Below, piece by piece: positions 3,466 to 61,864 of a DNA stretch of 64,000 nt; the first letter of the stretch is position 1; every line of letters starts with the position of its first letter. Origin of the DNA: Flavobacteriia bacterium (lineage in GTDB: Bacteria; Bacteroidota; Bacteroidia; Flavobacteriales; Weeksellaceae); contig JACFND010000007.1 in assembly GCA_019455045.1 (NCBI GenBank), positions 1-64,000 on the forward strand, in the 5' to 3' direction. The notes beneath the pieces were generated by a model that was not told the origin of the DNA, did not search any database, and saw only the letters and a program-made list of their open reading frames with translations. Made by a program: the position numbers and the translations under genes.

Positions 3466-3852
3466 TTATTGTGAATGAAGCCCAAATATATTTCCTTCGG
3501 AATCCATGCACATTGAACAAAATCCGTGTTCTCCAAGCGACATTTTCGGTTGAACAACATTTCCGCCCGCTGATTCCACACGGCTTTCTTCAACCGAACA
3601 ATCATCGCACTGAAAATAAATCATGGTTCCGCCTGCTCCGGCCGGCATATCATTCATTTTTACCAAAGCACCGCCGGCATTGGGAGAAGCATCCACCCAA
3701 GGAAAAAACGCCATTTGCATATCAGGCATTCCTTCCATTTCCGGCGCATCCATGAGTTCCAGATTCAACACTCTGCCGTAAAATTTTTTGGCTCTTTCCA
3801 TGTCATTGACATAGATTTCAAACCAGCACACTAAATTTTGTTTTAATTCCAT
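3466..3852 (-). CDS. VOC-family (glyoxalase/bleomycin resistance-like) protein
   Basis: 128 residues comprising one complete VOC module pair. It begins NLVCWFEIYVNDMERAKKFY, the usual first beta-alpha unit, and ends HGFCSMCMDSEGNIFGLHSQ, the usual last strand with the DPDGN-like turn. VOC proteins place metal-binding His/Glu residues on the sheet; the terminal H near the C-end and E in LELMDAPEMEG are candidates, but the activity is not determined. It is followed after about 50 bp by the SRPBCC gene, probably in one transcription unit. Many paralogues have this annotation without a known substrate. Confidence 0.8.
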   Translation of the reverse strand: MELKQNLVCWFEIYVNDMERAKKFYGRVLNLELMDAPEMEGMPDMQMAFFPWVDASPNAGGALVKMNDMPAGAGGTMIYFQCDDCSVEESRVESAGGNVVQPKMSLGEHGFCSMCMDSEGNIFGLHSQ

Positions 3853-3899
3853 AATTATTTTGTTTCTAACGGTTTATCGTTTGTTTTTAATTTCAATAT

Positions 3900-4433
3900 T
3901 CATTTTTTGCTGCATTTGACGATGGTGTTCCAATTCCTCGTGGTCACATCTTTTCCGAAAAACGATTGCAGCACATCCATTCCATTGACGGTGCTTCCTT
4001 TTGAAAAATCCAGAATACTGAAAACCGTTTTGTCTTTTATTTCAATCATTCTAAAGGATTTATCTTCGGATAAGAATGGTAAATCAATTTTATTTTCGGG
4101 TTCATTTTTCAGGAAACTGACATAGTATTTGGTGTTATCATCCGTCTCAAATTGTTCAAAAGGGTTGTTTTGCACCATTTGTTGAATTTCATCAAATTTC
4201 CTGAGCATCACCGGAATCTCAAATCCAAAGGTCTGTTCGAGCCGGTGTTCAATTTCGGATTCCGACCCTTCATTTTCTTTCGCTTCAAAAATGATATTTC
4301 CTGAATTCAACAAAGTTGAAACTTTGGCAAAACCCATTTTTTCCATCGTCTGACGAAGTTCAGCCATCGGTACTTTATGATGCCCTCCGACATTGATTCC
4401 GCGAAGCAGGGCGATGAATCCGGTGTTTTTCAT
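3900..4433 (-). CDS. DUF1697 domain-containing protein
   Basis: 177 residues matching DUF1697 throughout: it starts FIALLRGINVGGHHKVPMAE, has LLNSGNIIFEA, and ends with NWNTIVKC. The length is standard (about 175-180). The family is widespread and uncharacterised; the tandem ferredoxin-like folds suggest ligand or nucleic-acid binding without proof. It belongs to the minus-strand cluster between the two VOC genes. Confidence 0.85.
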   Translation of the reverse strand: MKNTGFIALLRGINVGGHHKVPMAELRQTMEKMGFAKVSTLLNSGNIIFEAKENEGSESEIEHRLEQTFGFEIPVMLRKFDEIQQMVQNNPFEQFETDDNTKYYVSFLKNEPENKIDLPFLSEDKSFRMIEIKDKTVFSILDFSKGSTVNGMDVLQSFFGKDVTTRNWNTIVKCSKK

Positions 4434-5449: not shown

Positions 5450-5528
5450 TTCGTTTAATTTTGATTTGAATTGATCAAAACTATGACAACTGATTCAATT
5501 TCAACTTGCCATAGGACAAGAAATGAAT

Positions 5529-6098
5529 TTACAACTCTTTTCTGATTCTACTGAATGAAGTATCGGTCATTCCCAAATAGGTCGCAATGTATTTGAGCGG
5601 TGACTGCCGGACGACTTCCGGTTTTTCCCGAAGGAGTTTCAGGTACCGTTCTTTGGCGGAAACAGTGACCATTTCCACCGATCTTTGTTTGAAATGAAAC
5701 AGCCGGCCGGTCATCCACAAACGGCCCCATTCGGGAAATCCGGGAACGGTTTGAAAAAGCTCCTGAAAAATATCAAAATCTATTTTCCAGCAAACACAAT
5801 CAGTCAGAGTCTGTATGTTTTCTTTGGTCGGGAACCGGTTGAACAGAGACAAAACCTCAATCACCACATCCTGTGGACAGAAAAAGTCGGTGGTGATGTT
5901 ATTCCCCTTGTAATCAAGGGCAAACGAACGAATTAAACCGCTTTCCAAAATCAGATATTCATTGGCGATTTTACCTTCTTTCAGTACAAAATCTCCTTTC
6001 TTCAATTCGATTTTCTGATGGGCAGTAATGATTTTCTCAAGTCCTTCAGAATTGATTAGCGGATGTTGATAAACCCGGGAAAGCAATTCATTTTTCAT
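5529..6098 (-). CDS. Crp/Fnr-family transcriptional regulator
   Basis: 189 residues. Residues 25-115 form a cyclic-nucleotide-binding-like beta barrel (LKKGDFVLKEGKIANEYLIL, LESGLIRSFA), followed by the dimer helix (FPEWGRLWMTGRLFHFKQRS) and a short winged HTH at the C-terminus (YIATYLGMTDTSFSRIRKEL). The family in Bacteroidota usually ends right after this RIRKEL, so it is not truncated. No cNMP-binding Arg motif or Fe-S cysteine cluster is evident. It probably heads the minus-strand cluster; a -7 box lies at 6121-6128. Confidence 0.85.
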   Translation of the reverse strand: MKNELLSRVYQHPLINSEGLEKIITAHQKIELKKGDFVLKEGKIANEYLILESGLIRSFALDYKGNNITTDFFCPQDVVIEVLSLFNRFPTKENIQTLTDCVCWKIDFDIFQELFQTVPGFPEWGRLWMTGRLFHFKQRSVEMVTVSAKERYLKLLREKPEVVRQSPLKYIATYLGMTDTSFSRIRKEL

Positions 6099-60373: not shown

Positions 60374-61675
60374 TCATTTTGAAAGAAACTCACCCAACAT
60401 ATACAACGGCACATTGGTCATCCAACTTTCTTCTTTGTATTCGGAAAGTGAAGTACGGACAGCGGTTTGCGGCTTGTATTTCTCACAAAAAGACTTAAAA
60501 CTTTTTGCTCTCAGGCTTTCTCCTGATTTAACTTCAATGGGGATGATGTCGTCGTTTTCGTTTTGTATTAAAAAGTCAATTTCATATTTGCTTCGTTCAA
60601 ACGTATGATAATAAATGGAAAGCGTTTCATTTTGATTGAGTTGCTGAAATACAAATTGTTCTGTCAAAGCTCCTTTAAATTCACTAAATACAGAATCTCC
60701 CTGGGCTATGGTTTTAGCATTCAATCTTGTCACAGCTGCCAATAATCCCACATCGTTGTGAAATAATTTGAATGCCGATAACTCCTGATAGGCAACCAAA
60801 GGCAGGGCGGGTTTTGTTGTGTTATAGACTTTGTGCAACAGACCCGCATCTGTCAGCCACTGAATCGCTAATTCAAAATCTCTGGCTCTTGCTCCTTCTT
60901 TGATAACACCGTAAATAAACTTTTTATTTTCTTTTGTTAATTGAGCGGGAATACTGTCCCACACCATGTTAATCCTGGGTAAAATTTCTTTTGGGGCATG
61001 TTTTGAAAAATCGTTTCGATACGAAGTAATAATTTGGTTTTGAATTCGGCGAACACTTTGCCAATCACTATTTTCAGCAAAATCTTTCACTGCTTCGGGC
61101 ATACCGCCCACAAACAAGTAATAACGCAAATAATTGATTAACTTTTGATGAAAAAAGCGGAGGTTTTCCCAATCCTTTTTATCCATGAGTTCTGCTATTC
61201 CATTCTCGTTCATCGCCAATAAAAACTCGTGAAACGACATAGGAGATAATTTTAAGAAGTCCACTTTTCCAACAGGAAAAGATTCTTCCGGGTGAATATT
61301 TACACCCAAAAGTGAGCCCGCACCAATAACGTGATATTCGGGAGCATCTTCATAAAAATATTTTAATGCAGTTAGTCCTTTGGGCGCTGCCTGAATTTCA
61401 TCAAAGACAATCAGCGTGTCTTCAGCATTGATTTTAATATTGCAATATGCATTCAATACTGTTACAATTCTCTCTGCATCAAAATCCACCTCAAACAGAT
61501 TTTTAGGAGCATTCGGATGTTCAAAGTTGACGTATGCAAGTTGCTTGTATTCCGTTTCTCCAAACTTTTTCAAAAGAAAGGTCTTTCCAACCTGCCTCGC
61601 ACCCAGAAACAAAAGCGGTTTTCTATTTGGGTTTAACTTCCAGCTTATAAGGCTTTTAATCTTACTCCTATACAC
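60374..61675 (-). CDS. AAA-family ATPase with DUF4143 C-terminal domain
   Basis: 433 residues. The start is GTG at 61675 (VYRSKIKSLISWKLNPNRKP); the in-frame upstream stop leaves no other ATG, and the family's usual M-Y-x-R-x-I-x-x-x-L-x-x-W start fits. Walker A is LGARQVGKTFLLKKF (25-37 region), Walker B LIVFDEIQAAPKGLTALKYF, then GAGSLLGV. DUF4143 follows (ALTEQFVFQQLNQNETLSIY, YYHTFERSKYEIDFLIQNEN, IPIEVKSGESLRAKSFKSF), which has a PD-(D/E)xK-like nuclease pattern (E-IDFL...IEVKSG). The cellular role of this family is unknown. The GTG and a preceding GGAG lie in repeat 1 of the 32-bp array. Confidence 0.88.
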   Translation of the reverse strand: MYRSKIKSLISWKLNPNRKPLLFLGARQVGKTFLLKKFGETEYKQLAYVNFEHPNAPKNLFEVDFDAERIVTVLNAYCNIKINAEDTLIVFDEIQAAPKGLTALKYFYEDAPEYHVIGAGSLLGVNIHPEESFPVGKVDFLKLSPMSFHEFLLAMNENGIAELMDKKDWENLRFFHQKLINYLRYYLFVGGMPEAVKDFAENSDWQSVRRIQNQIITSYRNDFSKHAPKEILPRINMVWDSIPAQLTKENKKFIYGVIKEGARARDFELAIQWLTDAGLLHKVYNTTKPALPLVAYQELSAFKLFHNDVGLLAAVTRLNAKTIAQGDSVFSEFKGALTEQFVFQQLNQNETLSIYYHTFERSKYEIDFLIQNENDDIIPIEVKSGESLRAKSFKSFCEKYKPQTAVRTSLSEYKEESWMTNVPLYMLGEFLSK

Positions 61676-61864
61676 TTTTCTCCGTATTTATTCATACAAA
61701 TATACACTTTTCTCCATGTATAAGAAGTAAATATTGCACTTTTCTCCAGCTTTTAATCTTAAAATTTACACTTTTTTCCAAAAATTCAGCTCTAAAAACA
61801 CACTTTTCTCCAGAAGTTTCATTCAAAAAATACATTTTTCTCCACATTAAAAACTGTTGGAAAT
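61673..61864 (-). repeat. Six-copy array with an exact 32-bp period
   Basis: CACTTTTCTCC (minus strand GGAGAAAAGTG) begins at 61673, 61705, 61737, 61769, 61801 and 61833, always 32 bp apart. Copies 1, 2, 3 and 5 are identical over 11 bp; copy 4 has CACTTTTTTCC and copy 6 CATTTTTCTCC. The 21 bp between cores differ in each unit. The array fills the gap between the gene at 61916 and the AAA ATPase gene, whose GTG start lies in copy 1. Confidence 0.85.

Follow-up and report, generated by a model that had tools for sequence, protein, structure and literature searches.

The stretch of DNA analyzed here, called the window, comprises 64,000 nucleotides of a Flavobacteriia bacterium genome (contig JACFND010000007.1 of assembly GCA_019455045.1, positions 1 to 64,000) and carries near its end a minus-strand gene for an ATPase of the AAA_14/DUF4143 type, which is preceded by an array of short direct repeats (Table 1). 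The 433-residue product of this gene scores above the Pfam gathering cut-offs for PF13173 (91.5 bits, E 5.5e-26, cut-off 27) and PF13635 (124.8 bits, E 3.5e-36, cut-off 28.1), and its residues 1-429 match the PADLOC profile PDLC04786, known as PDC-S01 (E 3.1e-176). PDC-S01, an ATPase fused to a PD-(D/E)XK domain, is presented in PMC12988326 as the fourth most common defense-type gene across prokaryotes and as a candidate for phage defense, the validation of most PDCs being pending. A search of PHROGs with the window protein gave no significant match, and a sequence search of the Protein Data Bank returned no relative. The AlphaFold2 model of the protein (predicted local distance difference test 88, predicted template-modeling score 0.89) consists of an AAA domain, a helical part, a winged-helix region, in which residues 252-260 are modeled with low confidence, and a PD-(D/E)XK-like domain. 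Its nearest solved folds are the archaeal STAND-type ATPases 2qen (Z 15.8, root-mean-square deviation 4.7, 265 residues aligned) and 2fna (Z 14.7), followed by a weaker likeness to NLR/CED-4 proteins and Orc1/Cdc6; these scores agree with an overall STAND/MNS-type fold of the ATPase, helical and winged-helix parts, the PD-(D/E)XK part being barely covered by the fold search. Among 68 homologs, the Walker A and DEIQ motifs are invariant or nearly so, and E365, D367, P379, E381 and K383 of the predicted nuclease motif are invariant. The window protein is predicted to combine a STAND-like ATPase, a winged-helix region and a PD-(D/E)XK motif that is intact.

The array consists of six minus-strand copies of the core GGAGAAAARTG that begin at positions 61673, 61705, 61737, 61769, 61801 and 61833, at steps of exactly 32 bp, and that together span 61843 down to 61673. 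The cores take the forms GGAGAAAAGTG (four copies), GGAAAAAAGTG and GGAGAAAAATG (one copy each), and the ATPase gene starts with the GTG inside copy 1. This arrangement, reported in a preliminary description of the sequence, was confirmed by the sequence itself and by a word scan, in which the 14-base word TGGAGAAAAGTGTA (up to two mismatches) matched the window seven times against 0.61 expected, six of these matches being the array. Tandem Repeats Finder also recovered a period of 32 at this place. Pairs of cores 15-27 bp apart occur in the 2.59-Mb genome at this array only, and the three further exact GGAGAAAARTGTA sites of the genome belong to an unrelated interspersed repeat without array. 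This interspersed repeat (GTCACATCGAGTGTTTTTCGGAGCGCAGAGGAGAAAAATGTATCGAG...), found at G000:C43:126-419 and C9:17140 (L356, L357), holds the core word by chance. A CRISPR array, with identical repeats and long unique spacers of similar length, was ruled out, the copies being imperfect, conserved over about 20 bp, separated by linkers of about 12 bp and placed on a promoter. A search of Rfam over 60-64 kb at E values up to 1 found no match and thus no known RNA element.

Table 1. Features of the ATPase-nuclease locus and its upstream array, in window coordinates.
Feature	Positions	Strand	Basis and remarks
AAA_14/DUF4143 ATPase gene, 433 aa, GTG start, PADLOC PDC-S01 candidate	60374..61675	-	Pfam, PADLOC, AlphaFold2
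AAA ATPase domain coding, residues 1-155 (Walker A GARQVGKT, DEIQ)	61211..61675	-	homolog alignment and AlphaFold2 model
Predicted winged-helix region coding, residues 230-306	60758..60988	-	AlphaFold2 model, partial Mantel test; best candidate DNA reader
PD-(D/E)XK-like domain coding, residues 328-433	60377..60694	-	homolog alignment and AlphaFold2 model
Array copy 1, CGGAGAAAAGTGTA	61671..61684	-	word scan; GTG start codon inside at 61673-61675
Predicted Bacteroidota -7 element, TATATTTG	61697..61704	-	consensus match; lies between the first two copies and joins the end of copy 2
Array copy 2, TGGAGAAAAGTGTA	61703..61716	-	word scan; -7 box begins with its TA
Array copy 3, TGGAGAAAAGTGCA	61735..61748	-	word scan
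Array copy 4, TGGAAAAAAGTGTA	61767..61780	-	word scan
Array copy 5, TGGAGAAAAGTGTG	61799..61812	-	word scan
Array copy 6, TGGAGAAAAATGTA	61831..61844	-	word scan

Comparison with homologous genes indicates that the array is not a local oddity, since similar arrays recur in front of homologs with a differing word and a nearly constant spacing of 32-33 bp. Upstream of 79 homologs and the window gene, direct repeats have a period of 32 in 25 loci and of 33 in 23, every other period between 15 and 60 being represented by one locus or none, and no such repeats occur in windows taken inside the same genes. When a complexity filter is applied, 32 or 33 is the best period in 41 of 79 loci of the A-type clade, to which the window gene belongs, in 12 of 72 diverse DUF4143 genes from the phylum, in 18 of 47 paralogs from five multi-copy genomes and in 14 of 30 plasmid, viral and other loci. 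Overall, 85 of 228 family loci have 32/33-bp repeats, versus 2 of 231 regions upstream of neighboring genes; the Fisher p values against these neighboring promoters range from 1e-6 to 1e-26 and are indicative only, because the loci are related. Downstream of the genes, 33-bp repeats occur in just 2 of 78 cases. As detection requires two nearly identical copies, these counts give a minimum frequency of arrays; the assignment of start codons was automatic, and many loci derive from metagenome bins, one of which (L005) is probably mis-binned. Array-bearing homologs are found in Bacteroidota, Clostridia, Spirochaetota, Pseudomonadota and Actinomycetota, on plasmids and on viral contigs, the plasmid arrays, recognized by eye or by period, coming from Pseudomonadota (Glaesserella, Acinetobacter, Vibrio), Actinomycetota (Collinsella) and Bacteroidota.

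With a looser chain of cores, arrays of two to seven copies are detected in 55 of 80 A-type loci, which for this clade is the opposite of the array-free homologs that would have spoken against a functional array. Their 106 spacings are 32 bp (49 cases), 33 bp (51) or 31 or 34 bp (6). Conservation between copies extends over about 20 bp, from approximately position -17 to +3 around the TG, and drops to background in the linker. The gene-facing half of the copy, AAAA-RTGTA, is common to the A-type clade, and the six or seven bases upstream of it vary by locus. Arrays also change in length: those of two related Vibrio plasmids (L348 and L354, upstream of position 1501) differ by a contraction of exactly 64 bp, or two units, from which it follows that copy number changes by recombination or slippage. 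On the protein tree, a spacing of 31-34 bp, or three helical turns, is seen in 88 of 99 labeled rows, and a spacing of 23 (or 22) bp marks a single clade of seven. The 32/33-bp spacing fits the proposal of the preliminary description that three helical turns could place all copies on one face of the DNA, but the 23-bp subclade does not, and phasing on one face is therefore unproven. The existence of this clade argues that the spacing is set by the geometry of a protein rather than by strict helical phasing.

The copies overlap the predicted core promoter of the gene, at the -7 box (TAnnTTTG) in Bacteroidota and at the -35 box in Clostridia. The motif TGTAnnTTTG, in which the TGTA of the word is fused to the -7 box, is present in 21 of 42 Bacteroidota loci versus 0.4 expected in shuffled sequence, and TTGNNN-17-TATAMT in 27 of 38 Clostridia loci versus 2.5 expected; in most of these 27 the -35 hexamer lies inside the last copy. 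Matches in a sigma-70 style scan of the window are no more frequent than in shuffled sequence, which is in keeping with a Bacteroidota promoter. In only 15 of 55 A-type loci, all from the window's part of the family, does the start codon fall within the last copy, and the Clostridia arrays lie upstream of a separate Shine-Dalgarno sequence.

Within this constant frame, the repeated word belongs to the individual gene and goes with the protein from host to host, even across phyla. The 14-base repeat word of each locus was scored for its best match upstream of all other loci. Below 50% protein identity, the mean best match is 9.4-9.7 of 14 positions, the shuffled level being 9.4; the word is shared by 9% of comparisons at 60-70% identity, by 17% at 70-80% and by 56% above 80%. 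The window and a Fibrobacterota locus (L009) whose protein is 69% identical both carry GGGAGAAAA-type words, and a homolog from the same genus as the window (G355) has a different word, CACGAAAGTCCTTTGATAAATGTGAT, three times. Paralogs of one genome never share their word (0 of 200 ordered comparisons), which makes a common host regulator unlikely. As sharing across genomes is likewise near zero in most identity bins, this result is no proof of selection for orthogonality. The divergence of the word was also compared with that of each protein region while controlling for the rest of the protein (partial Mantel test, 48 A-type loci, 301 trials). The strongest partial correlation was obtained for residues 230-306, the winged helix (r 0.197, p 0.003, the smallest p possible with 301 trials), and values of 0.08-0.10 for the ATPase and nuclease regions. 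This supports, without deciding the matter, the winged-helix region as the best candidate for the DNA reader.

The array is best explained as a private operator of the ATPase gene that is bound in regular register by the ATPase itself, mainly for autorepression, a reading to which we assign a probability of about 0.62. It starts from features of the compared sequences, namely the array, its conserved spacing, its promoter overlap and a gene-specific word that tracks with the protein; from these we infer cooperative binding by the ATPase and, as its effect, repression and not activation. The suggestion made earlier of cooperative binding to the array, or of autoregulation of the ATPase through it, is well supported by the kept spacing, the overlap with the core promoter and the gene-bound word. 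In the proposed mechanism, the ATPase would contact about 20 bp in every copy, its winged-helix region being the probable reader, and neighboring protomers held at a fixed distance of 32/33 bp would lead to several copies being occupied together. Because the copies lie on the core promoter, and in the window also on the start codon, occupancy would block transcription, and this negative autoregulation would hold a potentially harmful ATPase-nuclease at a low level. With each gene having its own word, paralogs and newly arrived copies would not repress each other. Several observations weigh against this reading. The promoter in the window is a consensus match only, and weak -35 boxes would fit an activator as well. 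The 23-bp spacing of one clade is a non-integer number of helical turns. The covariation is modest: other domains reach p values of 0.03-0.05, and the best single residue, E298 (r 0.31 versus a permutation 95% level of 0.27), is near noise. Finally, 60 of the 72 diverse loci lack a 32/33-bp repeat and a sample of the GPRQSGK subfamily has arrays in none of eight loci; with so many members devoid of a detectable array, array-based self-regulation is not needed by every member of the family.

Among the alternatives, the ATPase could bind the array and activate the promoter, in the manner of MalT-like STAND activators. The STAND-like fold, the in-register copies upstream and the non-consensus -35 boxes of Clostridia, which lie inside the last copy as in a class II activator site, are consistent with such a role, but the Bacteroidota copies at the -7 box and the start codon lie downstream of the positions at which activators bind, and the -10/-7 boxes seem adequate for basal transcription. 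We thus regard activation as unlikely; copies that cover the -7 box, the -35 box or the start codon favor repression. An improbable possibility is that the array is the target or the end of a mobile unit, recognized by the ATPase-nuclease to cut, move or home, regulation being secondary. The D/E/K residues of the nuclease motif are indeed invariant, the gene is absent from several relatives within the genus, genomes hold up to 34 DUF4143 matches and family members occur on plasmids and viral contigs. However, the arrays are one-sided, with the downstream count given above, and their overlap with the promoter is systematic; moreover, the genus comparison revealed neither a target-site duplication nor an empty site, contig ends and divergence having left the insertion borders unmapped.

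We consider very unlikely a role of the array in replication or partition, as an iteron-like site that an ATPase of the Orc1/Cdc6 kind would read. Initiator genes beside their own repeats are a known layout and the fold bears a likeness to Orc1/Cdc6, but here a single chromosome has many such loci with a word of their own for each, an array can have as few as two repeats, and there is an overlap with the promoter and a fused nuclease domain. Equally slight is the chance of binding by a separate transcription factor of the host. Ordinary operators generally look like this array, and the word-sharing and covariation results do not speak against a host factor at a single locus; against it stand the absence of shared words among same-genome paralogs and the fact that the word tracks the protein between hosts and even phyla, as in the window and the Fibrobacterota locus. 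The least credible explanations are those of the preliminary description in which the array provides translational decoy starts or swaps N-termini. The position of the start codon within the last copy in the window's clade is what speaks for them, yet this applies to a minority of the A-type loci. The homologs contradict both ideas: most of their words (e.g., CCTGCAAAAAGTGTA, GTCCGCCGAAAAAATGT, GCCCTTGTTTTGTTACA) are unlike a Shine-Dalgarno sequence plus start, the Clostridia copies are placed upstream of the -10 box of the promoter and apart from the Shine-Dalgarno sequence, and the conservation of MYR-type N-termini does not depend on whether the array reaches the start. The resemblance to a Shine-Dalgarno sequence plus start is an incidental local coincidence, in which a word ending in RTGTA meets the conserved MYR start.

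The operator reading can be extended to the whole family, albeit tentatively and with more doubt than confidence. In this large, horizontally spread family of STAND-like ATPase-nucleases, a private DNA specificity would change fast, and the array would be the only genomic address of its gene. A regular oligomer of the ATPase on the array would silence the gene and restrain the nuclease, and the gene would be unsilenced on entering a cell without the matching protein. Residents with the same word would exclude newcomers, as happens with heteroimmune phages. Phage immunity repressors are generally known for private, diverged operators through which relatives do not cross-regulate; they differ from the present family in their protein fold, and here the operators occur in a single array, in front of a single gene.

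The nearest described parallel among the literature covered is RptR of a phage-defense island, which acts on three direct repeats across the -10 box to repress its own defense promoter (PMC12255303). RptR is a small separate repressor with 9-bp repeats and a TAGCTA site conserved across homologs (PMC12255303), whereas in the present family the ATPase itself would do the binding, copies are spaced at 32/33 bp and the word varies between genes. An operator of the RptR type, with a conserved TAGCTA site, was rejected, the words differing between loci. MalT and other STAND-ATPase regulators (see PMC4381067) also combine a STAND ATPase with repeated promoter boxes. MalT differs in acting as an activator, in having a DNA-binding domain of the LuxR type and in the conservation of its box; the window protein has no Pfam match to a LuxR-type helix-turn-helix. 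Orc1/Cdc6 initiators likewise join an ATPase to a winged helix and have their genes beside repeated sites, but lack the fused nuclease domain, the promoter overlap and the many copies per chromosome of the window family. PDC-S01 has the same domain layout as the window protein, in line with the strong profile match, and its descriptions in the available part of PMC12988326 deal with prevalence and candidate status and mention no upstream array or regulation. No published description of these arrays was found in the literature searched, which excludes preprints and most subscription journals. For many family members, the arrays give a direct and cheap prediction of the DNA word that each protein should bind. 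They also represent a natural set of many protein-operator pairs from which to learn how a winged-helix ATPase changes specificity, and they offer orthogonal parts for building circuits.

Other repeats accompany related genes in the genome of the window and elsewhere. CRISPR-like repeats, CTCTTAATCGAACCATATTGGAATTGAAAC, alternate with unique spacers of about 36 bp at G000:C32 ~3690-3990 (L090), just upstream of a diverged AAA_14/DUF4143-like gene (frame at 2989). A second DUF4143 paralog of the same genome, at G000:C105 ~5490-5600 (L089:3991-4100), has its own repeat, TTCGAGTA, in steps of about 39 bp within its open frame. The genomes G353, G350, G351 and G354 contain 17 to 34 DUF4143 matches each, several of the frames being broken or short. 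At L284, L287, L288 and other paralog loci, the repeats before the gene are inverted and not direct, which suggests a different arrangement of the binding protein.
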